A stretch of DNA of 64,000 bases from contig NZ_RPEM01000006.1 in NCBI RefSeq assembly GCF_004745575.1, positions 154,471 through 218,470 on the forward strand, in the 5' to 3' direction. Below the pieces are notes generated by a model. That model was not told where the DNA came from. It saw only the letters and a program-made list of their open reading frames with translations, and did no database searches. The translations under genes were made by a program, and so were the position numbers. Below, in pieces: positions 2,039 through 21,723 of this stretch (position 1 is its first letter; the number at the start of each line of letters is the position of its first letter). The DNA is from Pseudotabrizicola sediminis (GTDB lineage Bacteria; Pseudomonadota; Alphaproteobacteria; Rhodobacterales; Rhodobacteraceae).

Positions 2039-2089
2039 GAAAAATTCACGCCTTTGGTGGTTGCGGGATGGGCGGTTGAGGCGTAACAT

Positions 2090-2117: not shown

Positions 2118-2140
2118 CTTGGCAAGATGTCGGGGGCAGA

Positions 2141-2593: not shown

Positions 2594-3168
2594 CAGGCAT
2601 AGCCCTTGGCGGCGGGTTTTCCCATCCGCCGGAACAGGCTGCACGGGCGTTTCGGGCGGTGTTAGAAGCTGTTTCGCGCCCCGGTACGATCTGGACGGTT
2701 GAAGGGGCGGTACCACCGGCCCCCCTGACGGTTGCGGCGGGCACCGTTCTTCTGACGCTGGCGGATGGCACCGCGCCGGTGCATCTGGCAGGGGATGCCG
2801 ATTGCCAGCCGGTGCGCGATTGGATCACCTTTCACATCGGCGCGCCTTTGGTTGGGGCTGAGGGGGCGATGTTTGCGGTGGGGCGATGGCAGGATCTGCT
2901 GCCGCTTGGGCGGTTTCACCCCGGTGATCCGGATTACCCGGACCGGGCGGCGACGCTGATCGTGCTGATGAACGACCTGACAAATGCAGGCGCTAGGCTG
3001 ACCGGGCCCGGGATCAAGGATGCGGCGCGCCTGTCGCTGCCCGAGATTGCCGCGTTTCAGCGCAATGCGGTGCAGTTTCCGCTGGGTCTGGACTTCATTT
3101 TTACCGCAGGCGACCGCGTGGCCGCCCTGCCCCGATCAACGAAAGTGGAGGGCGCGGCATGTATGTAG
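2590..3168 (+). CDS. phnH: PhnH, carbon-phosphorus lyase complex subunit
   Basis: This is a 192-residue C-P lyase core subunit of normal length. The N-terminal GGGFSHPPEQAARAFRAVLEAVSRPGTIW is the family hallmark; in other species PhnH is a PLP-transferase-like fold without cofactor that dimerises within the core complex. It is preceded by phnG with a 4-nt overlap, and its last 10 nt overlap the phnI start. Confidence 0.95.
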   Translation: MTGIALGGGFSHPPEQAARAFRAVLEAVSRPGTIWTVEGAVPPAPLTVAAGTVLLTLADGTAPVHLAGDADCQPVRDWITFHIGAPLVGAEGAMFAVGRWQDLLPLGRFHPGDPDYPDRAATLIVLMNDLTNAGARLTGPGIKDAARLSLPEIAAFQRNAVQFPLGLDFIFTAGDRVAALPRSTKVEGAACM

Positions 3169-4241
3169 CGGTCAAGGGCGGCGAGCGGGCCATCGACAAT
3201 GCCCATGCCTGGCTGGCCGAAGAGCGCCGGGGTGATCCGGGCGTGGCGGAACTGGGCGTGGCGCAGATCCGTGAGCAGCTGGCGCTGGCGGTGAACCGGG
3301 TGATGGCGGAGGGGTCGCTTTTCGACCCTGATCTGGCGGCTTTGGCGATCAAGCAGGCGCGCGGTGATCTGATTGAAGCGGTGTTCCTGATCCGAGCCTA
3401 TCGCACCACCCTGCCCCGGCTGGGCGCGTCGAACCCGGTGGATACCGGGGCAATGGCGGTGGATCGGCGGGTGAGTGCCACGTTCAAGGATCTGCCCGGC
3501 GGGCAGATATTGGGGCCGACGTTTGACTATACGCACCGTCTGCTGGATTTCAAACTGGCGGCAGAGGCCGCGGTGCCGGAAGCGGCGACCGCCCCGGCGC
3601 TGGCGGGGCCGGTGCCGCATGTAACGGGGTTTCTGAACCGCGATGGGTTGATCGAGGGGGCGGAACGGTCTGACGCCACGCCGCCCGATCTGACCCGCGA
3701 GCCGATGGAACTGCCCGCCGACCGCGCCTTGCGGTTGCAGGCGATCACGCGGGGGGATGAGGGGTTTGTGCTGTCGATGGCCTATTCCACGCAGCGCGGC
3801 TATGGGCGCACGCATGCCTTTGTGGGGGAGTTGCGCATTGGCAGGGTGGCGGTGGAGATGGACATTCCTGAACTGGGGTTCGCAATCGAGATTGGCGAGG
3901 TGGAGCTGACCGAATGTGAAACGGTCAACCAGTTCAAAGGGTCAAAGACCGAGCCGCCGCAGTTCACGCGAGGGTATGGGTTGGTGTTTGGCCAAAGCGA
4001 ACGGAAGGCGATTGCGATGTCTCTGGTGGACCGCGCCCTGCGCTGGAAAGAGTTGGGCGAGGATGACACCGGCGCACCGGCACAGGATGAGGAATTCGTG
4101 TTGATGCATTGCGACAACATTCAGGCGACCGGGTTTCTGGAGCATATCAAGCTGCCGCATTACGTGGATTTTCAATCCGAGCTGGAACTGGTGCGGCGGT
4201 TGCGGGCCGAGGCGATGGCTGTGCAGGAGGCGGCGGAATGA
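3159..4241 (+). CDS. phnI: PhnI, nucleosidase subunit of C-P lyase
   Basis: This 360-residue subunit is the nucleosidase that, with PhnG, PhnH and PhnL, makes ribose-1-phosphonate triphosphate from ATP and a phosphonate. The start MYVAVKGGERAIDNAHAWL and the region GYGRTHAFVGELRIG are characteristic. The start lies inside the end of phnH, and the stop overlaps the phnJ ATG (ATGA). No anomalies were seen. Confidence 0.95.
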   Translation: MYVAVKGGERAIDNAHAWLAEERRGDPGVAELGVAQIREQLALAVNRVMAEGSLFDPDLAALAIKQARGDLIEAVFLIRAYRTTLPRLGASNPVDTGAMAVDRRVSATFKDLPGGQILGPTFDYTHRLLDFKLAAEAAVPEAATAPALAGPVPHVTGFLNRDGLIEGAERSDATPPDLTREPMELPADRALRLQAITRGDEGFVLSMAYSTQRGYGRTHAFVGELRIGRVAVEMDIPELGFAIEIGEVELTECETVNQFKGSKTEPPQFTRGYGLVFGQSERKAIAMSLVDRALRWKELGEDDTGAPAQDEEFVLMHCDNIQATGFLEHIKLPHYVDFQSELELVRRLRAEAMAVQEAAE

Positions 4242-5107
4242 CCGATCAGGCCTATAACTTCGCCTATCTGGACGAACAGACCAAGCGGATGATCCGCCGC
4301 GCGATCCTGAAGGGGCTGGCGGTGCCGGGCTATCAGGTGCCGTTTGCCAGCCGCGAGATGCCGATGCCTTATGGTTGGGGCACAGGTGGGGTGCAGGTGA
4401 CCGCTGCCTGCCTGACGCCGGAAGATGTGCTGAAGGTGATCGATCAGGGTGCGGATGACACCACCAACGCGGTGAGCATCCGCAAATTCTTTCAGCGCAC
4501 GGCGGGGGTGCGGGTGACCGAGTCGACGGGTGAGGCCAGCGTGATCCAGACCCGGCACCGGATTCCCGAAGCGCCACTGCGCGAGGGGCAGATCTTGGTC
4601 TATCAGGTGCCGATCCCGGAGCCGCTGCGGTTTTTGGAACCGCGCGAAGCGGAGACGCGGAAGATGCATGAGCTGGAAGAATACGGGCTGATGCATGTGA
4701 AACTGTATGAGGACATCGCGCGGCATGGCGAGATTGCCACCAGCTATGCCTATCCGGTGAAGGTGGAGGGGCGCTATGTGATGGACCCATCGCCCATTCC
4801 GAAGTTCGACAACCCGAAACTGGGGGATTGCCCGGCGATTCAGCTGTTTGGCGCGGGGCGCGAGCAGCGGATCTATGCGGTGCCGCCCTATACACAGGTG
4901 GTGAGCCTCGATTTCGACGACCATCCGTTTGTGGCATCCAAGGCGCCGCATGATTGCGATCTGTGCGGGGCGGATGAAAGCTATCTGGATGAGGTGATCA
5001 TCGACGATGCGGGCGGGCGGATGTTTGTGTGTTCCGACACCGATTTCTGTGCCGGGCGGCAGGCGGCGGGGCATCGCGGGCGATTGTCACCGGCGGAGGT
5101 GGTGTGA
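4238..5107 (+). CDS. phnJ: PhnJ, radical SAM C-P lyase
   Basis: This 289-residue catalytic subunit uses a 4Fe-4S cluster and SAM to break the C-P bond of ribose-1-phosphonate 5-phosphate, releasing the alkane and a 1,2-cyclic phosphate. The unusual cysteine pattern CX2CX21CX5C is present at Cys240, Cys243, Cys265 and Cys271, each one residue before the E. coli positions (three cluster ligands plus the catalytic Cys). A Gly-rich segment YGWGTGGVQVT lies near residues 45-54. The ATG overlapping the phnI stop was chosen over a longer upstream extension because it gives the canonical start MTDQAYNFAYLDEQTKRM. The gene looks fully functional. Confidence 0.97.
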   Translation: MTDQAYNFAYLDEQTKRMIRRAILKGLAVPGYQVPFASREMPMPYGWGTGGVQVTAACLTPEDVLKVIDQGADDTTNAVSIRKFFQRTAGVRVTESTGEASVIQTRHRIPEAPLREGQILVYQVPIPEPLRFLEPREAETRKMHELEEYGLMHVKLYEDIARHGEIATSYAYPVKVEGRYVMDPSPIPKFDNPKLGDCPAIQLFGAGREQRIYAVPPYTQVVSLDFDDHPFVASKAPHDCDLCGADESYLDEVIIDDAGGRMFVCSDTDFCAGRQAAGHRGRLSPAEVV

Positions 5108-5898
5108 TGGGCGTGGTGGAAGCGGATATGCGGGCGGCGCTGGATCAGCCGTTGCTGAGCGTGACCGGGCTGACCAAGCGCTATGGCGCGCGGATCGGCT
5201 GCAGCGATGTGTCGTTTGATCTGTTCCCCGGCGAGGTGATGGGGATTGTGGGGGAAAGCGGGTCGGGGAAATCGACGCTGCTGTCTTGCCTTGCCGGGCA
5301 TCTGGTGCCCGATGAGGGGCAGGTGACTTATTCGGGCCGCGATGTGCTGGCGATGGCGGAGACGGAACGGCGGCGGCTTTCGCGCACCGAATGGGCCTAT
5401 GTGCACCAGAACCCGCGCGACGGGTTGCGGATGGGGGTGAGCGCGGGCGGAAATGTGGGCGAGCGGTTGATGGCGGTGGGGGCGCGCCATTATGGCGAGA
5501 TCCGGGGCGCGGCGGCGGACTGGCTGGGCCGGGTGGAGATTGCAGCCGACCGGATCGACGACCGGCCGAGCGCCTTTTCCGGCGGGATGCAGCAACGGTT
5601 GCAGATCGCGCGCAATCTGGTGACCGGGCCGCGGCTGGTGTTCATGGACGAGCCGACGGGCGGTCTTGATGTCAGCGTGCAGGCGCGGCTTTTGGACCTG
5701 TTGCGCGGGCTAGTGCGGGATATGGGGCTGTCGGTCATCATCGTGACGCATGATCTGGCGGTGGTGCGGTTGCTGGCCGACCGGCTGATGGTGATGAAGG
5801 GGGGCCGTGTGGTGGAACAGGGTCTGACCGATCAGGTGCTGGACGATCCGCAGGATGCCTATACGCAGCTGCTGGTCTCTTCTGTTTTGCAGGTCTGA
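5107..5898 (+). CDS. phnK: PhnK, ABC-type ATPase of the C-P lyase complex
   Basis: This 263-residue ATPase resembles oligopeptide-importer ATPases but belongs to the C-P lyase machinery, docking on PhnJ. Walker A GESGSGKST lies at residues 49-57, signature FSGGMQQ at 157-163, Walker B LVFMDE at 177-182, and a switch His in IIVTHDLAV follows. The ATG at 5107 overlaps the phnJ stop (TGATG). A further in-frame upstream start would run into phnJ and was rejected. phnL follows after 3 nt. Confidence 0.95.
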   Translation: MGVVEADMRAALDQPLLSVTGLTKRYGARIGCSDVSFDLFPGEVMGIVGESGSGKSTLLSCLAGHLVPDEGQVTYSGRDVLAMAETERRRLSRTEWAYVHQNPRDGLRMGVSAGGNVGERLMAVGARHYGEIRGAAADWLGRVEIAADRIDDRPSAFSGGMQQRLQIARNLVTGPRLVFMDEPTGGLDVSVQARLLDLLRGLVRDMGLSVIIVTHDLAVVRLLADRLMVMKGGRVVEQGLTDQVLDDPQDAYTQLLVSSVLQV

Positions 5899-5901
5899 GA
5901 G

Positions 5902-6591
5902 ATGCCGATGATCGAGATTACCAATCTGTCGAAAACATTCACCCTGCACAATCAGGGGGGCGTGGTCATTCCGGTGATGGCGGGAGCGAGCCTGCGGATT
6001 GCGGCGGGAGAGTGTGTGGGGCTGACCGGGCAATCGGGGTCGGGCAAGTCGACGCTGATGCGGATGGTGTACGGCAATTACCTGACCGCCGGGGGCAGCC
6101 TTGTGGTGGCAGGCGTTGATGTGGCGCGGGCCAGCCCTCGTGAGATCATCGCCTTGCGGCGCAGCACGTTGGGCTATGTCAGCCAGTTCCTGCGGGTGGT
6201 GCCACGGGTGGCGACGGTGGATGTGGTGGCCGAACCGCTGTTGCAGCTGGGGCGCCCGGTGGGGCAGGCGCGGGCGCGGGCAGAGGAGCTGTTGTCGCGG
6301 CTGAACATTCCGCAGCGGTTGTGGTCACTGTCGCCCACCACGTTTTCGGGCGGCGAGCAGCAGCGGGTGAACATCGCGCGCGGCTTTGCCCATGCCTTTC
6401 CGGTGCTGTTGCTGGACGAGCCGACCGCCAGTCTTGATGCGGTGAACCGCGAGGTTGTGCTGACGCTGATCGAGGAGGCAAAGGCGCGGGGGGCGGCGAT
6501 TTTGGGAATCTTCCATGATGAGGGCGCGCGGGCGCGGGTCTGTGACCGGCTGGTGGATGTGACCGGATTTACCCCCGGGCTGGCGGCATGA
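5902..6591 (+). CDS. phnL: PhnL, ABC-type ATPase of the C-P lyase pathway
   Basis: This is a 229-residue ABC-type ATPase required with PhnGHI for ribose-1-phosphonate triphosphate formation and structurally tied to PhnK. Walker A GQSGSGKST is at residues 43-51, signature FSGGEQQ at 148-154 and Walker B LLLDE at 169-173. The switch region reads GIFHDEGARARVCDR, as usual in PhnL. The stop overlaps the phnN start (ATGA). Confidence 0.95.
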   Translation: MPMIEITNLSKTFTLHNQGGVVIPVMAGASLRIAAGECVGLTGQSGSGKSTLMRMVYGNYLTAGGSLVVAGVDVARASPREIIALRRSTLGYVSQFLRVVPRVATVDVVAEPLLQLGRPVGQARARAEELLSRLNIPQRLWSLSPTTFSGGEQQRVNIARGFAHAFPVLLLDEPTASLDAVNREVVLTLIEEAKARGAAILGIFHDEGARARVCDRLVDVTGFTPGLAA

Positions 6592-7127
6592 TCTTTGCGG
6601 TGGTCGGGCCATCGGGTGCGGGGAAAGACACGCTGATTGCCGGGGCTTGCGCGCGGGACCCCGGTTTGCGGCTGGTGCGGCGGGTGATTACCCGGCCCGG
6701 TAATGCGGGGGGCGAGGATTTCGAGGGTGTGACGGAGGATGCGTTTCTGGCGCGGCGCGCGGCGGGGGAATTTGCGCTGGACTGGCAGGCGCATGGGTTG
6801 TGGTATGGCATTCCGGCGGCGCAGCTGGAGGGGCCGGGGCCGGTGCTGTTCAACGGGTCGCGGGCGGCGCTGCCTGCGGCACTGGATCTGATCCCGGATT
6901 TGGTGGTCATTGTGGTGACCGCCCCGGTGGAGGTGCTGGCGGCGCGGCTGGCGGCGCGGGGGCGTGAGACGGTGGAGGATGTTCGCGCGCGGCTTGATCG
7001 GGCGGGGTTTGAGCTGCCGGACGGCGTGGTGCCGCGTGTAGTGGTGAATGATGGCAGCGCCGAGGACGGCATCGCGCGGTTTCTGGCGGCGGTCTACCCG
7101 GAGAGCGGGAAGCGGTGCAGCAGATGA
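6588..7127 (+). CDS. phnN: PhnN, ribose 1,5-bisphosphate phosphokinase
   Basis: This 179-residue guanylate-kinase-like enzyme phosphorylates ribose 1,5-bisphosphate to PRPP, the last step returning the ribose carrier to metabolism. The P-loop GPSGAGKD is at residues 7-14, and VRRVITRP is the expected substrate-contact region. It is the last gene of the phnGHIJKLN run. Its 3' end overlaps the DUF1045 gene on the opposite strand by 34 nt. Confidence 0.93.
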   Translation: MIFAVVGPSGAGKDTLIAGACARDPGLRLVRRVITRPGNAGGEDFEGVTEDAFLARRAAGEFALDWQAHGLWYGIPAAQLEGPGPVLFNGSRAALPAALDLIPDLVVIVVTAPVEVLAARLAARGRETVEDVRARLDRAGFELPDGVVPRVVVNDGSAEDGIARFLAAVYPESGKRCSR

Positions 7128-7774
7128 AAGCGGCCATCCGCATCTTCGCAGAACAGGCAGAGGTCTTCGATGGCGAAGGGCTTTGGCAGGACTGGGGCGA
7201 GATGGGCGGACAGGACCGGGGCGGTCTGCGCGGCGTGATCCGCGGGCAGCATGTTGGTCAGCGTGAGGTGAAAGTGGAAGTCCTCCATCACATGCGGATA
7301 GCCCCATGTGTCGAGCAGCGCCAACTGGCGGGGGCTGAGGCTTTCAGGGCGACGGCGGGCGCGTTCAGCCCCGGTCATCGGGGCGCGCAGGGGGTTGGTG
7401 GCGCGCACCACCTGTGCCGCGAGGGTGTTGAGGGCAGAGGTATCGCCCATGGGCGTCAGGGCGACGAAGCCGTGCAGGTTTTGCACGCTCAGGCCGTCGC
7501 AGGTGGCGGGGGACAGCTGGCGCGACAAGGTGCGGACGGCATCTGCCACGTCATCCGCGCCAAGCCCATCCGCCGGACGGAACGGCGCGCGGAGGGTGCC
7601 GTGAAAGCCGTATTTGCGCGGATCGGTGGTCAGACCGGCCAAGGGCATCGGCAATCCGGGCAGGTCGGGTTGCGGTGCCGGACGGGCACTGGCACTGTCC
7701 CAGCCCAAAAGGGCGGCGGTTGCCTCGGCGAAGGGGCCGGGGCGCGGGGCATAGAAGATAGCGAAGCGTTTCAT
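7094..7774 (-). CDS. DUF1045 2H-phosphoesterase-like protein of the phosphonate locus
   Basis: This ~226-residue protein is from the family annotated as 'phosphonate metabolism protein' (DUF1045). From the chosen start MKRFAIFYAPRPG it carries two 2H-phosphoesterase signatures: HGTL at residues 58-61 (context KYGFHGTLRAPF) and HLTL at 169-172 (context DFHFHLTLTNM). Such enzymes open cyclic phosphates, including ribose 1,2-cyclic phosphates in eukaryotic relatives. That is the chemistry PhnP performs on the C-P lyase product, and no phnP is visible here. This role is inference. An in-frame Met three codons upstream (7783) is an alternative start. It is divergent from phnM and its 3' end overlaps phnN. 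Confidence 0.85.
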   Translation of the reverse strand: MKRFAIFYAPRPGPFAEATAALLGWDSASARPAPQPDLPGLPMPLAGLTTDPRKYGFHGTLRAPFRPADGLGADDVADAVRTLSRQLSPATCDGLSVQNLHGFVALTPMGDTSALNTLAAQVVRATNPLRAPMTGAERARRRPESLSPRQLALLDTWGYPHVMEDFHFHLTLTNMLPADHAAQTAPVLSAHLAPVLPKPFAIEDLCLFCEDADGRFHLLHRFPLSG

Positions 7775-7803
7775 CTGATCCATGGTGGCGGGATAGGGTG
7801 GCT

Positions 7804-7821
7804 TTGTCACACGGGTGTGAC
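7804..7821. promoter_or_regulatory. Pho-box-like site / perfect palindrome upstream of phnM and the DUF1045 gene
   Basis: TTGTCAC (7804-7810), 4 nt, GTGTGAC (7815-7821) matches the tandem 7-bp layout of a PhoB box with an 11-bp period. Its inner part GTCACAC-GG-GTGTGAC (7806-7821) is also a perfect inverted repeat. It lies about 55 bp upstream of phnM and 30 bp upstream of the DUF1045 start, so it could serve both divergent promoters. PhoB versus another dimeric regulator cannot be settled by eye. Confidence 0.5.
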
Positions 7822-7875
7822 GGGTTAATGTCATTGGACCCCCTGCCCCACGGATCGCAAGACAGGACTTGAGAC

Positions 7876-9018
7876 ATGAGTGAAGTTATTCTGCAAAACG
7901 CCGTTCTGGTGCTGCCAGGCGAGGTGATCCGGGGCAGCCTGCAGATGAAGGATGGCCGGATCGCGGATATCAGCGAGGGAGCATCCCATGTGGCGGGCGC
8001 GGTGGAGTGCGACGGCGATCTGGTGATGCCGGGGCTGATCGAGCTGCACACCGACAATCTGGAGCGGCATATCGAGCCACGGCCGCGCGTGAACTGGCCG
8101 CATCAGGCGGCGATCATCGCGCATGATGCGGAACTGGCCAGCGTGGGGATTACCACGGTGTTTGATGCCCTGCGGGTGGGATCGGTGACCTCGAACGCCA
8201 AGGCGAATTACGGGGAGTATGCCCGTGCGCTGGCGGATGAGATTCTGGACCTGCGGGCGCGTGGCGCCCTGCGGATCAGCCATTTTCTGCACCTGCGGGC
8301 GGAAGTGTGTTCAGAGACGCTGGTGGACGAGATGGCGAAGTTCGGGCCAGATGACCGGATCGGCATTGTCAGCCTGATGGACCATACGCCGGGTGAGCGG
8401 CAGTTCCGGGATGTCTCGAAATTGAAGGATTATGTCTGCGGCAAGCATGGCATGAGCGATGATGAGTTCGACGCCCATGTGAGCGGCCAGCGCGCGCTGC
8501 GCGACCGGCTTGGGGCGCTGCATGAGGCGACGGCGGTGGCGGAGAGCCGGCGCTACGGGGCCACATTGGCCAGCCATGACGACACGACTGCGCCGCAGGT
8601 GGCGGTGTCATCGGGGCATGGGGTGACCTTTGCCGAGTTTCCGACCACGGTTGAGGCGGCGATTGCCTGCCGTCAGCACGGCATCAAGGTGATGATGGGG
8701 GCGCCGAACCTGATCCGGGGCGGGTCGCATTCGGGGAATGTGGCGGCAAGCGAATTGGCCGAGGCGGATTTGCTGGACATCGTGTCGTCAGACTATGTGC
8801 CGTCATCGCTGTTGTCGGCGGCCTTGTTGCTGGGCGATCTGTGGGGGGATGTGGCGCGCGGGGTGGCCTGTGTGACGCAGGCCCCGGCCCTTGCGACTGG
8901 GCTGAGGGATCGTGGCCAGTTGGTGCCGGGCGCGCGGGCGGATGTTTTGCGTGTGGCGCGCATGGGGGCGGCGGCGGCGGTGCGTGGCACCTGGGTGCAG
9001 GGCAAGCGGGTGGCCTGA
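7876..9018 (+). CDS. phnM: PhnM, ribose-1-phosphonate triphosphate diphosphatase
   Basis: This 380-residue amidohydrolase-superfamily enzyme removes pyrophosphate from alpha-D-ribose-1-phosphonate triphosphate before PhnJ acts. The metal-binding region HTDNLERHIEPRP is at residues 58-70, HDDTTAPQ lies mid-protein, and DYVPSSLL is near the C-terminal third. It is separated from phnN by the oppositely oriented DUF1045 gene and so has its own promoter region with a Pho-box-like site. The end of the gene forms a hairpin across its own stop codon. Confidence 0.95.
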   Translation: MSEVILQNAVLVLPGEVIRGSLQMKDGRIADISEGASHVAGAVECDGDLVMPGLIELHTDNLERHIEPRPRVNWPHQAAIIAHDAELASVGITTVFDALRVGSVTSNAKANYGEYARALADEILDLRARGALRISHFLHLRAEVCSETLVDEMAKFGPDDRIGIVSLMDHTPGERQFRDVSKLKDYVCGKHGMSDDEFDAHVSGQRALRDRLGALHEATAVAESRRYGATLASHDDTTAPQVAVSSGHGVTFAEFPTTVEAAIACRQHGIKVMMGAPNLIRGGSHSGNVAASELAEADLLDIVSSDYVPSSLLSAALLLGDLWGDVARGVACVTQAPALATGLRDRGQLVPGARADVLRVARMGAAAAVRGTWVQGKRVA

Positions 9019-9028
9019 GCGGCCACCC
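9008..9028. terminator. Hairpin across the phnM stop (convergent with grpE)
   Basis: GGGTGGCC (9008-9015) and GGCCACCC (9021-9028) form a perfect 8-bp stem with a 5-nt loop containing the phnM TGA. There is no T-tract. It lies between the convergent phnM and grpE ends and probably terminates or protects both messages. Confidence 0.5.
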
Positions 9029-9037
9029 CGGGAATGA

Positions 9038-9571
9038 TCAGTTTGCGGGCGTGGACGAGACGCCGACCTGCGCCGGGCGCAAAAGTCGGTCATGCAGCAT
9101 GAAGCCTTCGGTCATCACCTGAATGATGTTGCCTGCCTTGGTGCCCGGAACCGGAGCTTCGAACATGGCCTGATGCAGTTGGGGATCAAACGCATCACCC
9201 GGCAAGGGGGAGATCGGGATCATGCCATGTTTGGTCATGACCTGGGTCAGCTCGCGCAGGGTTAGCTCCACCCCTTCGATCAGGGCGGCGGCGTGGCTGC
9301 GGGTTTCGTCGGTTGTCGCGTCGAGTGCGCGTTTGAGGTTGTCAAACACCGGGAGAAGATCGCGGGCGAGCCGGGTGCTGCCGTATTGTTCAGCCTCGCG
9401 CCGGTCACGATCGGCGCGCTTACGGGAATTTTCGGCATCCGCAAGGGCGCGCATGAAGCGGTCGCGCATGTCATCGCGTTCGGCGCGCAGGGCGTCGAGT
9501 TCATCGGCTTGGACGAAATCTTCCACGCTTTCGAATTCTGTCGTGTCGGGGCTGGGGTTTTCCTGAGCCAT
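9038..9571 (-). CDS. grpE: GrpE, nucleotide exchange factor for DnaK
   Basis: This is a 177-residue cytoplasmic co-chaperone that releases ADP from DnaK. A long charged helical region covers residues ~20-70 (DELDALRAERDDMRDRFMRALADAENSRKRADRDRREAE), the coiled-coil dimerisation part. The C-terminal beta domain follows (GDAFDPQLHQAMFEAP, GNIIQVMTEGFMLHDRLLRPAQVGVS). It lies 43 nt downstream of hrcA in the same direction, the common hrcA-grpE heat-shock pair. Confidence 0.96.
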   Translation of the reverse strand: MAQENPSPDTTEFESVEDFVQADELDALRAERDDMRDRFMRALADAENSRKRADRDRREAEQYGSTRLARDLLPVFDNLKRALDATTDETRSHAAALIEGVELTLRELTQVMTKHGMIPISPLPGDAFDPQLHQAMFEAPVPGTKAGNIIQVMTEGFMLHDRLLRPAQVGVSSTPAN

Positions 9572-9614
9572 CTGCTGTCTTCCTTACACAAACCTTTTGC
9601 CGATCATCGGCTGA

Positions 9615-10685
9615 TTAGCCCTTGCCGCGTTCGGATACCATCCGCCCGACAAGCTGGGCCGTGTAATCGACAATCGGAACGATACGGCCGTAGTTCAGCC
9701 GCGTCGGACCAATGACGCCAACGGCACCGATGATCTTGCGATCAGCGTTCATATAGGGAGAGACCACCAGAGAGGAACCCGAAAGTGAGAAAAGCTTGTT
9801 CTCGGAGCCAATAAAAATGCGCACACCGTCGCCGGACTCGGTCAGTTCAAGGAAATCGGCGATGTCTCGCTTGCGCTCCAGATCGTCGAACAGGATGCGG
9901 ATGCGGTCGATCTCCAGCCCTTCGGTGGCACCTTCGAGCAGGTTGGCGCGGCCACGCACGATCAGCCGCTCCCCTTGCTCGCCGCCGTTTTCCCAGATCG
10001 CGATACCGCTTTCGACCAGATCGCGAGCCAGAACGTCGATCTCCTGACGATGCAGGGCGATATCCTGCGTCATGGTGCGGCGCAGATCAGACAGGGTGCG
10101 GCCTTCGGCGAGCGCGTTGAGGAAATTCGCGGCCTCGCGCATGGAGGATGGGGTTTGCCCGGCAGGCGGCGTGAACAAGCGGTTTTCGACATGACCATCG
10201 GCAAAGACCAGCACCACCAGCGCCCGGTCCGCTGCCAGGCTGACGAATTCGATATGCTTGATCGGCGCCTCACGTTTTGGCGACAGCACCAGACTTGCGC
10301 CGCGCGTGATGCCAGAGAGGGCGGACCCGACCTGATCGAGCAGCGAGGCCACATCGCGGTCGGAGTCGGTGAAGGTTGCGTCGATCTTGTCGCGGTCTTC
10401 CTGCGCGACGGTTCCGACTTCAAGCAGGCCGTCGACGAACATCCGCAGGCCACGCTGCGTGGGGATGCGACCGGCAGAGATATGCGGGCTGTCGAGGAGG
10501 CCCAGAAATTCGAGATCCTGCATCACATTGCGAATGGTTGCAGCCGACACCTTCTCGGTCATGCTGCGCGTGAGGCTGCGCGAGCCGACGGGTTCGCCAG
10601 AGGTGAGGTAGCCTTCCACCACGCGCCGGAACACCTCACGGGACCGGTCATTCATCTCGGTCAGCAGTTTTGCGCCATCGGTCAT
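9615..10685 (-). CDS. hrcA: HrcA, heat-inducible transcription repressor
   Basis: This 356-residue repressor of class I heat-shock genes binds CIRCE operators and is kept active by GroEL. The N-terminal winged-helix (EVFRRVVEGYLTSGEPVGSRSLTR...VSAATIRNVMQDLEFLGLL) and the C-terminal region with VVSPYMNADRKIIGAVGVIGPTRLNYGRIVPIVDYTA are typical. A second in-frame Met (MNDRSREVF) 10 codons in could be the true start. I saw no CIRCE element in front of it. It is divergent from rph. Confidence 0.95.
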   Translation of the reverse strand: MTDGAKLLTEMNDRSREVFRRVVEGYLTSGEPVGSRSLTRSMTEKVSAATIRNVMQDLEFLGLLDSPHISAGRIPTQRGLRMFVDGLLEVGTVAQEDRDKIDATFTDSDRDVASLLDQVGSALSGITRGASLVLSPKREAPIKHIEFVSLAADRALVVLVFADGHVENRLFTPPAGQTPSSMREAANFLNALAEGRTLSDLRRTMTQDIALHRQEIDVLARDLVESGIAIWENGGEQGERLIVRGRANLLEGATEGLEIDRIRILFDDLERKRDIADFLELTESGDGVRIFIGSENKLFSLSGSSLVVSPYMNADRKIIGAVGVIGPTRLNYGRIVPIVDYTAQLVGRMVSERGKG

Positions 10686-10796: not shown

Positions 10797-11513
10797 ATGC
10801 GCCCCTCTGGCCGGAAACTGGACCAAATGCGGTCGATCTCGATTGAAACGAGCGTGATGCGGCACGCGGAAGGCTCTTGCCTGATCAAGATGGGGGATAC
10901 GCATGTCTTGTGTTCGGCAACCATCGAGGACAAGGCGCCTTCGTTTCTGAAAAACACCGGCCTTGGCTGGGTGACCGCAGAATATGGCATGCTGCCACGT
11001 GCCACGAACAGCCGCATGCGCCGGGAAGCTGCCGTGGGCAAGCAGAGCGGAAGAACTCAGGAAATTCAAAGGCTTATCGGTCGATCGCTGCGGGCGGGGG
11101 TTGACCGGAGTGCGTTGGGGGAGCGTCAGATTGTGGTGGACTGCGATGTGCTGCAAGCCGATGGTGGGACGCGGTGCGCGGCAATCACCGGCGGATGGGT
11201 GGCGTTGCGACTGGCGGTGAACCGGCTTTTGGCGGCGGGAACCATTGTGAGCGATCCGGTCATTGACCATGTGGCGGCGGTCTCTTGCGGGATTTATGCG
11301 GGGCAGCCGGTTCTGGATCTGGATTATCCGGAGGACTCGGCCGCCGGGACCGATGGCAATTTCGTGATGACCGGGCGCGGCAGGTTGATCGAAGTGCAGA
11401 TGTCGGCAGAGGGGGCGTCTTTTTCGCGCGAAGAAATGCTGGAGCTGCTGGATCTGGCCGAGGCGGGCTCGACGCTGTTGGTTGCGGCGCAGGCCGCGGC
11501 TTTGAAAGGCTAG
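10797..11513 (+). CDS. rph: RNase PH
   Basis: This 238-residue phosphorolytic exoribonuclease trims tRNA 3' ends. It begins [44 protein letters not shown], and contains the conserved [14 protein letters not shown] and the region [20 protein letters not shown]. Length is normal. rdgB starts 2 nt after its stop, so the two are co-transcribed. Confidence 0.97.
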
Positions 11514-11515
11514 CC

Positions 11516-12124
11516 ATGGGACTCTCACTTGGGCCAAGGCTTTTGGTGGCCACTCATAATGCCGGGAAGCTGGAAGAAATCGCCGATCTGCTTGGCCCTC
11601 ATGGGATTGAGGTGGTGTCAGCTGCCGCGTTCGGACTGCCGGAGCCGGAGGAAACCGAAGACAGCTTTGTCGGCAATGCCCGCCTTAAGGCCCATGCTGC
11701 GGCAAAGGCGACGGGATTGCCTGCACTGGCGGATGACTCTGGCATCTGTGTTGATGCGCTGAAGGGTGCCCCTGGCGTGTACACCGCGGATTGGGCAGAG
11801 ACACCGGCGGGGCGTGATTTTTCGCTGGCAATGACGCGGACATGGGAGGCCTGTGAGGCGATTTCAGCTCCGCATCCCCGTCTGGCACAGTTTCGCTGCA
11901 CGCTCGTCTTGGCGTGGCCGGATGGACGTGATCTGGTGTTTGAGGGTCAGGTATCCGGGCAATTGGTCTGGCCGATGCGGGGCGCGCAAGGGCATGGCTA
12001 TGACCCGATGTTTCAACCAGGTGGCTATGCCTTGACCTTTGCTGAAATGGACCGTGCGGTGAAGGGGGAGATCAGCCATCGGGCGGCTGCGTTCCGAAAG
12101 CTGGTCGCCCATTGTTTCACGTGA
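11516..12124 (+). CDS. rdgB: RdgB/HAM1, XTP/dITP pyrophosphatase
   Basis: This 202-residue house-cleaning enzyme removes non-canonical purine NTPs. The hallmark [11 protein letters not shown] is at residues ~12-22, with [13 protein letters not shown] and GYDPMFQP following. The ATG just after rph was chosen; a longer upstream frame overlaps rph. Its last codons and TGA lie inside a perfect parS sequence (12113-12128), so the stop codon is part of a centromere-like site. Confidence 0.95.
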
Positions 12125-12128
12125 AACA
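12113..12128. other. parS: parS site 1 (exact 16-bp palindrome)
   Basis: TGTTTCACGTGAAACA, the exact chromosomal parS consensus bound by ParB, overlaps the 3' end of rdgB and includes its stop codon. It lies about 1.2 kb downstream of the 3' end of parB. Confidence 0.95.
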
Positions 12129-13335: not shown

Positions 13336-14250
13336 TCACGGCGTGAAGTCACGCGGCAAGACAGAAAGCGCCTGACAGATCATATCCAGTTGATCGAGAT
13401 TTCTATAGTGCAGGCGCAACACACCGCCCTCCCCCGACGGGTCATGGTCAATGGTAACGCTCATCCCCAGATTGGCGCTCAGATCCAATTCGATCGCACG
13501 GGTGTCGGCATCCTTCTCCTCCCGACCAGATCGCTTCGCTTTGCCTGCCCGGTCCATTCCCACACTGCGGACCAGCTTTTCGGTCGCACGAACCGACAAA
13601 CCAGCACCGACAACCTTAACCGCGAGTGCGAGAGGATCTGGTGTTCCGATCAGCGTACGGGCGTGGCCGGCAGAAAGCTTGCCGGTACGAATCATTGTAA
13701 GAACTTCGTCGGGCAAGCTGAGCAGCCGCATGGTATTGGCGACATGTGATCTGCTTTTAGACAGCGCCTCGGCAAGCTTTTCCTGCGTATGGCCAAAGCT
13801 GTCCATCAGTTGCCTGAAGCCCAACGCTTCTTCGACCGCGTTCAGATCAGCGCGCTGGATGTTCTCTATGATGGCGATTTCCAGCACTTCATCATCAGAA
13901 AACACCCGCACCACGACCGGTACATCGTGCAACTGCGCCATCTGCGCGGCCCGCCACCGGCGTTCACCTGCGACGATCTGATAATCACCGCTTTCAGGAA
14001 TGGCGCGGACAACGAGCGGCTGAATGATGCCCTTCGCTCGTACGGATGCCGCGAGCTCTTCCAGAAGGGCAGGATCAAAATCGCGGCGCGGCTGATTCGG
14101 GTTTGGAAAGACCTTCTCGATAGGAAGGACAGTGATGCCAAGGCCGGTCACCCTGTCGCTGCTGTCCACATCGCCCCTCAAAAGGTTTACGTCTGCCATC
14201 AAAGCGGACAAACCCCGCCCCAGACCCTTACGATCCTGTTTCTTTTCCAT
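13336..14250 (-). CDS. parB: ParB, chromosome partitioning protein
   Basis: This 304-residue CTP-dependent DNA clamp loads at parS and spreads. The N-terminus GLGRGLSALMAD is the chromosomal ParB hallmark (ParA-stimulating tail). The CTP-binding GERRWR is at residues 95-100, the helix-turn-helix follows (RQLMDSFGHTQEKLAEALSKSRSHVANTMRLL), and the C-terminal dimerisation domain ends the protein. It lies 15 nt downstream of parA. All three parS sites in the window are within about 3.5 kb of it. Confidence 0.97.
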   Translation of the reverse strand: MEKKQDRKGLGRGLSALMADVNLLRGDVDSSDRVTGLGITVLPIEKVFPNPNQPRRDFDPALLEELAASVRAKGIIQPLVVRAIPESGDYQIVAGERRWRAAQMAQLHDVPVVVRVFSDDEVLEIAIIENIQRADLNAVEEALGFRQLMDSFGHTQEKLAEALSKSRSHVANTMRLLSLPDEVLTMIRTGKLSAGHARTLIGTPDPLALAVKVVGAGLSVRATEKLVRSVGMDRAGKAKRSGREEKDADTRAIELDLSANLGMSVTIDHDPSGEGGVLRLHYRNLDQLDMICQALSVLPRDFTP

Positions 14251-14265
14251 CGGGTTTCCTTTTGG

Positions 14266-15078
14266 TCAGGCAGCGCGACCGTTTGATTTTCGCGAAATAA
14301 CTTCAAGGGACAAGCGGCGATAGGCATCTGCGCCCTTCGACGTTGGATCATATTGAAGAATGGGCAGCGCGTAGGAAGGTGCCTCTGACACCCTTACATT
14401 CCTAGGGATCGTCGTCGAGAAAACCATGTCGCCCAAAGTCGCCCTGGCGTCCGCTTCAACCTGCTGCGAGAGGCGGTTTCTGCTGTCCGTCATGGTCACG
14501 AGCACACCTTCGATCCGGAGGCGAGGATTGGCAGACTTTCGGATATCCCGAACGGTCAGCATCAATTGCGATAGCCCTTCCAGCGCGAAAAACTCGCTTT
14601 GCAACGGGATTAGAACCGATTCAGCGGCCACGAGGGCATTAACCGTCAGTAGGGACAGCGACGGCGGGCAATCTACAAGCACGAAATCATGTCCGATTGC
14701 TAGGAACCGGGTTTCCTGTATCGCATCAGACAGTAAAAAAGATCTCTTCTCGCTCGAAACAAGGTCGATGTCTGCAGATGCGAGATCTGCGTTTGCCGGG
14801 CAGAGCGAGATTCCCGGCACTGTGGTGTCCTGTATCAGGTCAATCAATAGCGCCTGATCTAACAACAAATCATAGGTGGTTTGCTTCCTCGCCTCTGGCA
14901 CGACACCCAAACCGGTTGAGGCATTGCCTTGCGGGTCCATGTCAATGACGAGGACCTTATATCCGAATTCTGCAAGGCCTGCGGCAAGATTTATGGTGGT
15001 GGTGGTCTTGCCCACCCCGCCCTTCTGGTTTGCGATGGCGATGACCCTTGGGATTCGACGTTGAGCTTCATCAGACAT
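14266..15078 (-). CDS. parA: ParA, chromosome partitioning ATPase
   Basis: This is a 270-residue Walker-type ATPase that segregates ParB-parS complexes. The deviant Walker A KGGVGKTT is at residues 19-26; Walker A' (VIDMDPQGNASTGLG) and Walker B (FVLVDCPPSLSLL) are present. The start [12 protein letters not shown] was chosen; it overlaps the end of rsmG by 8 nt, giving the classical rsmG-parA-parB order. Confidence 0.97.
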   Translation of the reverse strand: MSDEAQRRIPRVIAIANQKGGVGKTTTTINLAAGLAEFGYKVLVIDMDPQGNASTGLGVVPEARKQTTYDLLLDQALLIDLIQDTTVPGISLCPANADLASADIDLVSSEKRSFLLSDAIQETRFLAIGHDFVLVDCPPSLSLLTVNALVAAESVLIPLQSEFFALEGLSQLMLTVRDIRKSANPRLRIEGVLVTMTDSRNRLSQQVEADARATLGDMVFSTTIPRNVRVSEAPSYALPILQYDPTSKGADAYRRLSLEVISRKSNGRAA

Positions 15079-15697
15079 GTTGAATATTCCTGAGCGCCAA
15101 TATCGCGGCGGCTGGCTCTGTCTTACTGGGATGGACCCGCAAATCAAAGGCCCAATCAGAGCGCGCGGCCGTCACCTCGGCCTGGTAATTGATGCCCTTT
15201 GGGAACAGCGCCTGGCCATTTTTGCCCAAATGCCGCATCGCAAAGGCACATAGCTTGGTCAGCGGCCCCAACGCGCGCGCGGAAAGCACATCAGCTGCCA
15301 ACGGAGGCGTCTCTTCAATTCGGGCGTTGAGCACCGTTACAGTCACGTCGAGTTGGCGAGCAGCCTCACGCAAGAATGTGGCTTTTCGGCTGTCCGCTTC
15401 CACCAGCGTAACCGCAATCTTTTTAGCCGAGTCACCTGCCAGTACAGCAATAACTAAGCCTGGGAAGCCGCCGCCGCTCCCCAAATCGGCCCAAACGCCT
15501 TCCTCCAGATCCATCAGGGTATAGAGTTGGAGCGAATCCAGGATATGACGCTGGTACAGGTTTGAGATACTGCCCTTTGAAACAAGATTGATTGCCGGGT
15601 TCCACTTTCGGACCAATGCTTCCAAGAGATCCAGTCGCTCGAATGTTTCACGTGAAACATCGCCGCCCAAATCAAACCCATGCAACTTCGGCATCAT
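15071..15697 (-). CDS. rsmG: RsmG (GidB), 16S rRNA m7G527 methyltransferase
   Basis: This 208-residue SAM-dependent methyltransferase acts on 16S rRNA G527. It has the SAM-binding segment [18 protein letters not shown] and the upstream RHILDSLQL typical of the family. The first codons are Met-Met, and either could initiate, both overlapping the mnmG stop. Codons 14-18 (SRETF region) are written by a perfect parS sequence at 15644-15659. Confidence 0.95.
15644..15659. other. parS: parS site 2 (inside rsmG)
   Basis: TGTTTCACGTGAAACA is an exact match to the consensus, embedded in the N-terminal coding sequence of rsmG (translated as part of DVSRETF). It is about 1.4 kb upstream of parB. Confidence 0.95.
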
Positions 15698-17568
15698 CCC
15701 GCCTCCCGCAGAGCCGCTGACCTCCGGACGTTTGCCAGGATGAGCGCGAGAGCCGCGGGAGTCATCCCCTCGATCTGTGCCGCTACGGCCAGTGACGCCG
15801 GTCGTTGCCGCTGCAGCTTTGACAACAGCTCGCCAGAGAGCCCGGAGAGGCCCGCATAGGAGAAATCAGCTGGGATCGCGGTAAGCTCTTCACGCTTGAG
15901 CTGATCAATCTGGGCCTGCTGCCGATCGAGGTAACGTCCGTACATCGCATCACGCAAAATCTGGGTCCGGATGTCGGGGTCGGCGTTAAGTAATTCGGGC
16001 AGCAGACGATCCTGCTGATCCGAAGTCATGGCAAACGCGCCCAGCACGTCGAGCCCGCTCCTGCGCGATCCGTCAGAGCTTACATGAACACCGCCCTCCA
16101 AAAGATCACGCGGCGTGAAAGTCCGTTTCTCAAGGCGACCCTTCAAGTCATTCAAATTGTTCAACTTTTTGTAAAAACTAGATTTTCTGGCCTCTGACAC
16201 AATTCCCAGGGAAATTCCCTGCTCGGTCAAACGCTGATCGGCGTTGTCTGCGCGAAGCGACAACCGGTATTCTGCGCGCGATGTGAACATCCTGTATGGC
16301 TCCGTCACACCCCTGGATCTCAAGTCGTCCAACAGCACGCCAATGTAACTGCCAGAGCGATGAAACTGCACCGGCTCTTTGTCCATCGCGAGATGCCCTG
16401 CATTCAGCCCAGCAGCAAGCCCCTGTGCAGCTGCCTCTTCATAACCCGTTGTGCCGTTGATCTGACCCGCAAAAAACAGGCCTTCCAGATTCAACACTCC
16501 GAGTCCCGCCGACAGCGCGCGAGGGTCAAAGAAATCATACTCAATCGCATAGGCAGGCTGAAGGATCGTTGCGTTTTCGAGGCCCACTATTGAGGAAACA
16601 TAGGCATTCTGGACCTCGATCGGGAGTGACGAGGAAATGCCGTTCGGATAGACAGTGTGATCTGTCAGGCCCTCTGGTTCCAAGAACACCTGATGGCTGT
16701 CCTTATCCGAGAACCTGACCACCTTGTCTTCAATTGACGGGCAATACCTTGGGCCAACTCCGTCAATATGACCACCGTACATCGCCGAACGTGACAAGTT
16801 TGCACGGATGATGTCGTGGGTCCTTTCATTGGTACGCGTGACGCCACATGACACCTGCCGTGCAACTGGCTTGCGATTCAGGAAAGAGAACATTGACGGC
16901 TCGTCATCGCCCTTTTGTTCGTCCAAAATCGACCAATTGATCGTCCGCCCATCTAGTCTGGGCGGTGTACCCGTTTTCAGGCGCCCGCGTTTCAAGTCAA
17001 GATCATTGAGCCTGTCACCAAGACGGGTCGATGGTGCATCGCCCATCCGACCCCCTGCCTGACGCTGATCGCCGATATGAATAAGGCCATTCAGGAAAGT
17101 TCCCGCAGTCAAAACCACCGCGCGTGCGCTCACGCTCTGTCCATCGGCCAGAATGACCCCTCCGATACGCGAATCGTCAGCGATCAAGTCTACGACTTCG
17201 CCCTCAATAAGGCTCAGGTTCTGTTGAGCTGACAATTCAGCCTGAACAAAAGTGCGATACAATGCCCGATCTGCTTGGGCGCGAGGCCCTTGGACTGCCG
17301 GGCCCTTCCGGAGGTTCAGCAGCCTGAACTGGATGCCCGCCGCATCCGCTGCGCGACCCATGATTCCATCCAGCGCATCAATTTCACGTACCAGATGACC
17401 CTTCCCAAGCCCGCCGATAGCAGGATTGCAGGACATCATTCCGATTGTAGCAAGCTTCTGTGTCACGAGCGCAACGCTCGCACCAGCGCGTGCGGCTGCC
17501 GAAGCTGCCTCTGTCCCCGCGTGGCCGCCACCGATGACAATGACGTCAAAATGTTTCACGTGAAACAC
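15694..17568 (-). CDS. mnmG: MnmG (GidA), tRNA uridine-5-carboxymethylaminomethyl modification enzyme
   Basis: This ~624-residue FAD protein works with MnmE to modify wobble U34 of tRNAs. The dinucleotide-binding [10 protein letters not shown] is near residues 13-22, and [13 protein letters not shown] and TAGTFLNG are present. The start is a judgement: GTG at 17568 gives [15 protein letters not shown] and is preceded by GGAAAG at suitable spacing; a TTG six codons earlier would overlap mnmE by 16 nt. The first codons are written by parS site 3. Confidence 0.95.
17552..17567. other. parS: parS site 3 (at the mnmG start)
   Basis: TGTTTCACGTGAAACA is an exact match and encodes the N-terminal FHVKH of MnmG. 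It sits about 3.3 kb from the proposed origin at 20.7-21.1 kb, the closest of the three sites. Confidence 0.95.
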
Positions 17569-20263: not shown

Positions 20264-20713
20264 TCAGAACTTCACGATCACCGAAAACACGATCAGCACC
20301 AGCAAAACTGTCGGCACCTCGTTCATCATCCGATAGTGCCGCCCGCTCAAGGTGTTGGTCCCGGCGGCAAATGCCTTGCGACGGGCGGCAAGCCACATGT
20401 GAAACCACGTCATGCCTAGCACCGATGCCGCCTTCACCCAAGGCCACAGCATCGACCAGTCGACAACGCCCGGCGTCATGACCAGACCCAGACCAAAGAT
20501 CCAGGTCGCAATCATCGCAGGGTTCATGATCGCGCGCAGCAGTCGGCGTTCCATGGTCTGAAACAGATCATCCGTGTCGGTGCCGGTCTTAACCGTTTCT
20601 TCATGATAGACAAACAGTCTGGGCAGATAGAACAGCCCAGCCATCCAGGCGATCACGGATATGACATGCAGGGCTTTCGTCCAAAGATACCAGTCGGCCA
20701 AAATATCTGTCAT
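20264..20713 (-). CDS. hemJ: HemJ, protoporphyrinogen IX oxidase
   Basis: This 149-residue integral membrane protein (UPF0093) oxidises protoporphyrinogen IX to protoporphyrin IX in many bacteria lacking HemG/HemY-type oxidases. About four transmembrane helices are visible. The first carries the conserved His in KALHVISVIAWMAGLFYLPRLFVYH, followed by the region WLAARRKAFAAG. It is transcribed away from the proposed origin. Confidence 0.92.
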   Translation of the reverse strand: MTDILADWYLWTKALHVISVIAWMAGLFYLPRLFVYHEETVKTGTDTDDLFQTMERRLLRAIMNPAMIATWIFGLGLVMTPGVVDWSMLWPWVKAASVLGMTWFHMWLAARRKAFAAGTNTLSGRHYRMMNEVPTVLLVLIVFSVIVKF

Positions 20714-21129
20714 GTCATCCTCACCTGTTCTCTTCTTCTTTATTAAAAGAAATATAAGAAAGGAATGTTGTTGTAGGGCCTGTGGACAACAGAATTCCGG
20801 CTCTTGTCCCCAGTTCTGTGCACGTGTCTTGCCTTTTGGATAACTCCGTGGAAAACAAGCGTTTGCTGTGGATATCTATAGAAAAATGACGTTTTATCAG
20901 CCCTTTGGAAATAGGTAGGCTTCTGCCTGATCTGCCCCGCATGTGTCGCGGAGTCATCACCGGGTCCGATATCCGCGCCTTCGGATCTGCTCTGTCCACA
21001 GCGGGATATCTCTCGCGTGCTGCTTGACAAACCGGGGTCGCTTGCCACCCTTCGCCCAATATCCTCTCCTGCGCACAAAACGCGCTGCGTGAACAAAGTA
21101 AGCATATCCACAGGGATGGCCTGACTGAA
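20714..21129. other. oriC: Probable chromosomal replication origin (oriC)
   Basis: This 416-bp stretch has no credible gene between the divergent hemJ and maf. It holds DnaA-box-like 9-mers one or two bases from TTATCCACA on either strand: TGTGGACAA (20781-20789), TTTGGATAA (20835-20843), CGTGGAAAA (20847-20855), TGTGGATAT (20867-20875), CTGTCCACA (20992-21000) and ATATCCACA (21104-21112). An AT-rich stretch at about 20731-20768 could be the unwinding element. One GANTC methylation site is at 20951. The genes on both sides run outward, and the neighbours (rho/mnmE/mnmG/parAB to the left, maf-aroE-coaE-dnaQ to the right) are those flanking oriC in Caulobacter and relatives. Function is inferred from this layout. 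Confidence 0.8.
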
Positions 21130-21723
21130 ATGACCCTTATTCTGGCATCCGGCTCCGAGATCCGGCAACAGCTGCTGACGGCGGCAGGCGTCCTCTTTAC
21201 GGTTCAGTCAGCGCAGGTCGACGAAGAGACAATCCGCCGCGCCCTGCAGGCAGAACAGGCCCGTCCAAGGGACATGGCCGATGCCCTTGCCGAGATGAAA
21301 GCCCGCAAGATCGCCGAAAAGCGGCCCGACTGCATGGTGCTTGGCTGTGACCAGATTCTGGAGTTTCAGGGCGACGTGCTGGCCAAGGCTGAAACCCCGG
21401 CTGAAGCGCGCGACCAGTTGCGCAGGCTGCGCGGCGGATGGCACAAGCTGTGGTCTGCCGCGGTGATCTATCACGATGCCCGGCCGGTGTGGCGGTTCAC
21501 GGGCGAGGCGCGGCTTTTGATGCGCCCGCTGTCCGACGCCTATCTGGAAGATTATGTCGACCGGAACTGGCACAGCATCCGTCACAGCGTGGGCGGTTAC
21601 AAGCTGGAGGAAGAAGGCTGCCGCCTGTTTTCCGCCGTCGAAGGCTGCTCGTTCACCGTGATGGGCCTTCCCCTTTTGGCCATTCTGGGCTACCTCGGTG
21701 ACAGAGGTCTTATTCCGACATGA
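21130..21723 (+). CDS. maf: Maf-family nucleotide pyrophosphatase
   Basis: This 197-residue cytoplasmic nucleoside-triphosphate pyrophosphatase has the opening motif LILASGSEIRQQLL and the later VLGCDQILEF, with Asp in the active site. Family members hydrolyse modified or canonical nucleotides and are linked to septum control. It is the first gene to the right of the proposed origin, overlapping aroE by 4 nt (ATGA). Confidence 0.93.
   Translation: MTLILASGSEIRQQLLTAAGVLFTVQSAQVDEETIRRALQAEQARPRDMADALAEMKARKIAEKRPDCMVLGCDQILEFQGDVLAKAETPAEARDQLRRLRGGWHKLWSAAVIYHDARPVWRFTGEARLLMRPLSDAYLEDYVDRNWHSIRHSVGGYKLEEEGCRLFSAVEGCSFTVMGLPLLAILGYLGDRGLIPT

Follow-up and report, generated by a model that had tools for sequence, protein, structure and literature searches.

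Sequence evidence for a chromosomal replication origin in the hemJ–maf gap of a Rhodobacteraceae genome and for a candidate array of deviant DnaA-trios at its hemJ side

Introduction

At which site does replication of the chromosome begin in the member of the Rhodobacteraceae whose DNA is considered here, and which sequence might allow the duplex to be opened there? The 64-kb stretch of DNA that was analyzed as a whole (hereafter, the window) features a gap between the divergent genes hemJ and maf, which had been proposed as the likely chromosomal replication origin (oriC) in an initial annotation.

In Caulobacter crescentus, experiments placed the origin (Cori) between hemE and a gene of COG1806 featuring DUF299 (PMC1914354). 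For the Rhodobacteraceae, oriC regions of 101 strains were predicted from DnaA boxes, base-composition disparity and proximity to parAB (Kopejtka et al. 2019, PMC6699656), and oriC1 of Rhodobacter sphaeroides was assigned from GC skew and partition loci (PMC6315104). The basal origin unwinding system (BUS) described for Bacillus subtilis consists, in this order, of a DnaA box, a short GC spacer (4 bp on average), an array of triplets termed DnaA-trios and an AT-rich region (PMC8287927, PMC10721633). The published rule for searching asks for three or more trios of the form 3'-NAN-5' within 16 bp of a box; trios were not found in 15% of the origins, for which the BUS authors suspected deviant motifs, e.g., those without the central adenine (PMC8287927).

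Materials and Methods

The host genome is a draft of 4.04 Mb in 86 contigs, and the window is located on a contig of 294,637 bases, in which one masked stretch is represented by N. DnaA boxes were searched with the consensus TTATCCACA, sites with at most one mismatch being referred to as near-consensus. Pfam searches were performed for rho, hemJ, maf, parA, parB, secB, hemN, hrcA and the exonuclease gene, while the names rsmG, mnmG, mnmE, aroE and coaE were presumed from the sequences of the genes. The parS consensus used was TGTTTCACGTGAAACA.

The family alignment comprised 99 distinct orthologous gaps retained from 111. For the class Alphaproteobacteria, 71 gaps upstream of hemE were kept from 80 loci after removal of one locus without a hemE match, one that was too short and seven duplicates. 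For every minus-oriented box (up to two mismatches), the triplet array was scored as the longest series of triplets led by G in the 3' to 5' reading, provided that the series began no more than 16 bp from the box. As controls, we used the opposite strand of these gaps (mirror) as well as left flanks of 45 bases that were shuffled while the boxes stayed in place. The hypothesis of a G phase was derived from loci L218–L237 and the Rhodobacteraceae gaps and was recorded before the hold-out loci were fetched.

Results and Discussion

The hemJ–maf gap and its genomic context

The gap comprises 416 bases and gave a single match within its own genome. On its left side, all genes from parB to hemJ are encoded on the minus strand, and on its right side maf, aroE, coaE and the exonuclease gene (dnaQ) on the plus strand, so that the genes point away from the gap in both directions, as had been noted initially. 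The best match of HemJ carrying a species name was that of Pseudotabrizicola formosa (92% identity). The annotation had also recognized no credible gene in the gap, and this agrees with our results: two antisense open reading frames of 112 and 141 amino acids were without a Pfam match, and no Rfam family was matched between positions 19800 and 22000 at E-values up to 1. Moreover, the lengths of the 99 orthologous gaps are distributed over all three classes modulo 3 (38, 34 and 27 gaps), which argues against a coding function. The motif GANTC occurs once in the gap, at position 20951.

The partition genes parA and parB are located 5.6–7.4 kb to the left of the gap, and three perfect parS sites were found at distances of 3.2–8.6 kb from it (Table 1); beyond those three, no further parS with at most two mismatches was detected on the contig. 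Of the three perfect sites, those at 15644 and 17552 fall close to the first codons of the presumed rsmG and mnmG and translate in frame to V-S-R-E-T and F-H-V-K-H, respectively; parS may constrain the N-termini of these two proteins. The dnaA gene is located on a contig other than that of the window.

Table 1. Coordinates of the putative origin, its predicted elements and neighbouring features in the window
Feature	Position	Strand	Evidence
oriC (putative), entire hemJ–maf intergenic gap	20714..21129	.	densest DnaA-box cluster of the contig
hemJ, left flank	20264..20713	-	Pfam UPF0093
maf, right flank	21130..21723	+	Pfam
AT-rich, purine-rich tract at the hemJ side, probable DNA unwinding element	20731..20764	.	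AT-window count; A-rich also in the alignment of relatives
Triplet array ATG-TTG-TTG-TAG (3'-5': GAT GTT GTT GTA), candidate deviant DnaA-trios	20765..20776	+	conservation of third-base G; enrichment in family and class
GC spacer GGCC between array and box 1	20777..20780	.	sequence
DnaA box 1, TTGTCCACA, one mismatch, adjoining the array	20781..20789	-	box scan
Weak DnaA box, TTGTCCCCA, two mismatches	20804..20812	+	box scan
DnaA box, TTATCCAAA, one mismatch	20835..20843	-	box scan; columns conserved
Weak DnaA box, TTTTCCACG, two mismatches	20847..20855	-	box scan
DnaA box, ATATCCACA, one mismatch	20867..20875	-	box scan
Weak DnaA box, CTGTCCACA, two mismatches	20992..21000	+	box scan; tccaca columns conserved
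DnaA box at the maf side, ATATCCACA, one mismatch	21104..21112	+	box scan; columns among those best conserved in the gap
parA and parB, chromosome partition genes	13336..15147	-	Pfam ParB_N, AAA_31/CbiA
parS, perfect, in the start of mnmG	17552..17567	.	consensus scan
parS, perfect, in rsmG	15644..15659	.	consensus scan
parS, perfect, across the 3' end of the ORF at 11285-12124, preceding hemN	12113..12128	.	consensus scan

DnaA boxes and the AT-rich tract

Four of the five near-consensus DnaA boxes of the window are located in the gap, as are eight of the 89 sites with at most two mismatches, four in each orientation. The proposal of at least six box-like 9-mers in both orientations, none of them perfect, is thus confirmed with respect to number and orientation, and a perfect match to the consensus was absent among the boxes of the gap. 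The cluster scan covered the window's contig and 3.2 kb around dnaA out of the 86-contig draft. With 24 near-consensus sites on the entire contig, 0.028 would be expected in the gap as compared to the four observed (Poisson probability 2.4e-8), and for sites with at most two mismatches eight were observed vs. 0.59 expected. At both thresholds, the gap represents the densest place on the contig.

The AT-rich stretch at positions 20731–20768, which the annotation had likewise pointed out, features a GC content of 21%. Among 289,524 N-free 38-base windows of the contig, only 15 were equally AT-rich, and these fall into two places including the stretch itself. The tract is a probable DNA unwinding element.

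Conservation among relatives and correspondence to the Caulobacter origin

In all 80 related loci (L003–L082), hemJ and maf were found to be divergent around a gap of 385–461 bases, and the gene order parB-parA-mnmG-mnmE-rho-hemJ-gap-maf-aroE-coaE-dnaQ was maintained as far as each locus extends. Thirty more loci, the window's own included, showed the same divergent arrangement around a comparable gap. Near-consensus boxes in the 80 loci numbered 270 inside the gaps (8.1 per kb) vs. 207 outside (0.15 per kb), and the gap was the densest box window in 75 of them. The 99 distinct gaps are 370–461 bp long with a mean identity to the window of about 45%. An alignment across the family had been suggested as a check on the origin proposal, and it revealed conserved islands at the boxes of both ends and in a block beside box 1, the remainder being poorly conserved; in the columns of box 1, the box base was retained in 56 to 93 of the 99 gaps. 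Two tandem boxes, about 9 bp apart, were seen at the left end of the gap in some relatives (e.g., L061, L067 and L073). In eight loci (L045, L047, L054, L063, L064, L065, L069 and L072), the box next to the array is absent or more distant, with the GAT repeat and mostly also GTAGGG being retained.

Counted by eye, 21 of the 28 class genomes for which the places of both genes were available encode hemJ and maf divergently within 6 kb. Loci were fetched for 20 of the 21 genomes with a close divergent pair, and the hemJ–maf interval measured 2.2–5.4 kb in these. At least three near-consensus boxes within 450 bases were detected in 12 of the 20 stretches, and six stretches contained none or one in all. 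In locus L227, the interval encodes ferrochelatase, uroporphyrinogen decarboxylase (URO-D, hemE) and a PF03618 protein, six boxes being located between the last two genes. PF03618 is the DUF299/COG1806 family. The PF03618 protein was also present in L226, and the remaining loci were judged from the sizes of their open reading frames and a tblastn search with the L227 HemE, which gave a match in 19 of 20. The best HemE match in the host genome is located on another contig. The simplest reading is that the gap represents the class-wide origin and that the three genes have been lost or moved from their place between hemJ and maf.

By way of these class relatives, which carry the box cluster within the hemJ–maf interval in the stretch separating hemE from the PF03618 gene, the gap occupies an address corresponding to that of Cori. 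Both also share, going by the published description of Cori, a length of about 400 bases, several DnaA boxes and an AT-rich tract (PMC1914354). Differences exist in the flanks, which in the host are hemJ and maf instead of hemE and COG1806, with hemH, hemE and the PF03618 gene absent between them. Furthermore, five CtrA sites were described for Cori (PMC1914354), whereas no site of the form TTAA-N7-TTAA was found in the host gap. With the origins predicted for other Rhodobacteraceae, the gap has in common the DnaA boxes and the proximity of the partition genes; the array beside the first box is not described in the available text of these papers (PMC6699656, PMC6315104), and the host genome is a draft.

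GC skew

A minimum of the cumulative GC skew in the gap had been proposed as a further check, with a minimum elsewhere named as a refutation, and here the outcome was divided. On the window's own contig, the minimum was located at the far end and not in the gap, and the mean skew to the right of the gap was slightly negative. In a relative with a single contig of 4.19 Mb (G070), in which the order hemJ-gap-maf was confirmed, the minimum within a contiguous 400-kb stretch was found at 101.6 kb, i.e., 21 kb from the gap (approximately 122.8–123.2 kb). The sampled sum over this whole chromosome, carried over the record end, was lowest at the 80–100 kb sample, and the expected sign was observed for 23 of the 29 samples on the left arm and for 19 of the 28 on the right. 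A second relative (G018) featured negative skew in ten of ten left-arm samples and positive skew in six of ten right-arm samples, its lowest sampled sum, again carried over the record end, being at about 0.36 Mb, approximately 0.44 Mb from the gap. For a third (G049), the samples were noisy and gave no clear signal, with 5 of 11 being negative on the left arm and 6 of 9 positive on the right. The skew therefore supports the origin well in one relative and coarsely in another, whereas the window itself gave no such support.

Positions 2000–10000 of the window, on the parB side of the origin, exhibit a strong positive GC skew of up to 0.27, opposite to the expected sign. The genes in this part resemble a phosphonate (phn, C-P lyase) cluster, and the region is possibly acquired or inverted DNA near oriC.

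Assignment of the gap as probable origin and its proposed function

Box density, the AT-rich tract, the parS sites, the conserved synteny and the match to the hemE/COG1806 address of Caulobacter together support the assignment of the hemJ–maf gap as the chromosomal replication origin, and on these sequence features the proposal made initially is upheld as very probably correct. Two other explanations were weighed. The gap might merely be a conserved divergent promoter region of hemJ and maf under the regulation of DnaA, with replication beginning elsewhere; its position between two divergent genes and the known additional action of DnaA as a transcription factor are in line with this. However, a comparable cluster and array occur in class relatives in which hemE, and not hemJ, is the left neighbour, the box density of the gap is about 55-fold above that of its surroundings in the 80 loci, and parAB and parS adjoin it. 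A scan of positions 20600–21300 for promoters and terminators yielded one of each, both at chance level and outside the gap, the sole promoter site being located at the hemJ start. Taken together, the promoter explanation appears highly improbable. That the true origin resides near dnaA, with the gap acting as a cluster that titrates DnaA, would agree with the location of oriC beside dnaA in many bacteria and with the existence of titration clusters. An unrelated origin near dnaA, named in the annotation as a finding that would speak against the gap, was looked for, but the 3.2 kb holding dnaA contain no box with at most one mismatch, and three with two mismatches vs. 4.7 expected. In G070, moreover, dnaA is located at about 0.5 kb, roughly 122 kb from the gap, and the skew minimum is closer to the gap. 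An origin at dnaA is therefore considered extremely improbable.

From the elements observed in the gap, from how well they are conserved and how far they exceed chance, and from the match to the Caulobacter address, we infer DnaA binding, a site of opening and origin activity as follows. DnaA would bind to the boxes of the gap, and at the hemJ-side end a DnaA filament starting at box 1 would run across GGCC and cover one of the strands of the triplet array and the AT-rich tract. The duplex would then open at the array and tract, helicases would be loaded, and forks would move away to either side in the direction of the flanking genes. The new origins would be segregated by ParB bound to the three parS sites.

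A G-phased triplet array beside box 1

Positions 20765–20789 of the window read ATG TTG TTG TAG GGCC TGTGGACAA, and in many relatives GATGATGATGATGTAGGGCC followed by the box, or a sequence near it, was found. The third base of the four triplets is G in 98, 70, 88 and 85 of the 99 aligned gaps, respectively, giving a family consensus, read 3' to 5', of GAT-GTW-GTW-GTA. The arrangement resembles the BUS of B. subtilis in the order of box, short GC spacer, triplet array and AT-rich region, and the box-proximal trio 3'-GAT-5' fits the B. subtilis consensus; unlike there, the next triplets (GTT, GTT and GTA) are without a central adenine (PMC8287927, PMC10721633). The rule for a BUS allows a box up to two mismatches and up to 16 bp between box and array; box 1, with one mismatch and a spacer of four bases, lies inside both limits. 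No NAN run was found at the left boxes of the window, so that the published trio rule fails there. A run of three NAN trios at a different box of the same gap agrees with the letter of this rule, but such runs are no more frequent than in shuffled flanks (see below).

Within the family, G runs of at least four triplets were detected in 70 of the 99 gaps, as compared to 19 on the mirror strand and a mean of 14.5 (maximum 25) for shuffled flanks. In the 71 class gaps, G runs of at least five occurred in 25, as compared to 4 on the mirror strand and a mean of 3.2 (maximum 8) after shuffling, and runs of at least four 3'-GNT-5' triplets in 13 (mirror 0; shuffled mean 0.02). Runs of NAN triplets behaved differently. 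Those of at least four were present in 18 class gaps vs. 18.4 in shuffled flanks and in 45 family gaps vs. 41.8 (mirror 10), and those of at least three did not discriminate in these gaps (40 of 71 in the class, as compared to 33 on the mirror strand and 39.4 after shuffling; 69 of 99 in the family, as compared to 31 and 76, respectively).

The 52 alphaproteobacterial hold-out gaps, whose genomes are akin to one another and to the first set, with counts uncorrected for phylogeny, featured G runs of at least five in 18 cases, where dinucleotide shuffles gave an expectation of 1.8 and the mirror strand 3, 3'-GNT-5' runs of at least four in 10 vs. 0.03 (mirror 0), and NAN runs of at least four in 16 vs. 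13.4 (mirror 11). The majority of the hold-out gaps fall below the G-run and GNT thresholds. Since we settled on the run-length cut-offs and on the 3'-GNT-5' form with the hold-out arrays already in view, the prospective test applies to the G phase alone, and the reading of the array as deviant trios is weighed down slightly for this reason.

In 29 class gaps with G runs of at least four within 200 bases of hemE, GTT (44), GAT (34), GGT (17), GGA (17) and GTA (12) were the most common triplets, the centre base being T in 60, G in 44, A in 40 and C in 10 of the triplets. The array-side box was located 30–158 bases from the estimated hemE start in 20 of 21 class gaps with at least three GNT triplets. 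As the array lies beside hemE in the class and beside hemJ in the Rhodobacteraceae, it follows the origin and not a gene. A literature search for DnaA-trios in Alphaproteobacteria yielded one paper, on Epsilonproteobacteria. The tree of the BUS paper marks the five classes of Proteobacteria, and alphaproteobacterial trios may be contained in its tables (PMC8287927).

DnaA residues at the trio contacts

In the B. subtilis complex, Arg202 and Glu228 touch the guanine of the trio and Asn187 the central adenine; exchange of this adenine for T or G reduces activity, whereas exchange for C does not (PMC10721633). According to the alignment, the DnaA of the window's host carries Lys, Glu and Tyr at the equivalents of positions 202, 228 and 187. 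Among 40 class DnaAs, taken from the more similar matches listed out of 193 genomes and mostly from genomes with origin gaps in the set, Tyr occupies position 187 in 39 and Phe in one, and Lys202 and Glu228 are found in all 40. Control sequences were more diverse at position 187: ten divergent class members featured Tyr in three, Phe in one and other residues in six, and ten other Proteobacteria carried T, G, S, A, Q or N. Lys202 was present in 19 of these 20 and is not class-specific. By these residues, the guanine contacts are kept in their chemistry and the adenine contact is not, a pattern also seen outside the class. The exchange of Asn187 for Tyr as a specific signature co-varying with the deviant array, considered as a candidate, was weakened by the two control sets.

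The sole Phe-187 DnaA of the 40 belongs to a genome (G112, with loci L227 and L345) that has a clear TAG-TAG-TTG array. Another class genome (G470, with loci L325 and L384) carries His at position 187, and visual inspection of the 240 bases directly upstream of hemE revealed no triplet array; this genome is a possible natural test of co-evolution between array and DnaA.

Reading of the array

Two interpretations of the array have to be considered together. On the one hand, many alphaproteobacterial origins may be opened via a deviant DnaA-trio of the form 3'-GNT-5' (3'-GAT-(GTW)n-5' in the Rhodobacteraceae), in which the guanine and the three-base step would be kept and the central adenine, thought to confer specificity for single-stranded DNA, would not; it would be read by a DnaA with Tyr at the Asn187 equivalent, as in the 39 class members mentioned above, and the genus of the window would represent an extreme form. 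On the other hand, the array might not be read as trios in this way, being just an unwinding sequence that is flexible or rich in GT, or the true trios might belong to the overlapping 3'-TAG-5' frame with central A. A strict 3'-NAN-5' run beside the left boxes, mostly 3'-TAG-5', was indeed found in 53 of the 99 family gaps vs. 1.35 in wholly shuffled gaps, a shuffle that destroys boxes and AT tract too. The excess of family NAN runs of four over the mirror strand points in the same direction, and the wide variation of residue 187 in other Proteobacteria implies that the identity of this residue does not prove a changed reading. However, NAN runs of four remain at the level of shuffled flanks in the family, and close to expectation in the hold-out gaps, while G-phased runs exceed it. 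The G (98, 70 and 88 of 99) and T (82, 83 and 70) of the triplets are also better kept than the A at the centre in the alternative frame (80, 65 and 50), and the window's own array is without a NAN run. On balance, the interpretation without deviant trios is given an even chance, and the deviant-trio reading, put forward tentatively, a chance just short of even.

Conclusions

The assignment of the origin would anchor maps of replication and segregation for a genus near Pseudotabrizicola, and it ties the Rhodobacteraceae origin to the Caulobacter address. As such, oriC is an ordinary element at a known address. The new part is the triplet array, a concrete candidate for deviant trios with a sequence rule and with support beyond the family. 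It matters more than the assignment of the origin, and the DnaA of the host bacteria is without the residue that contacts the central adenine in B. subtilis. The array thereby makes it testable whether the opening of a replication origin tolerates a different base code.
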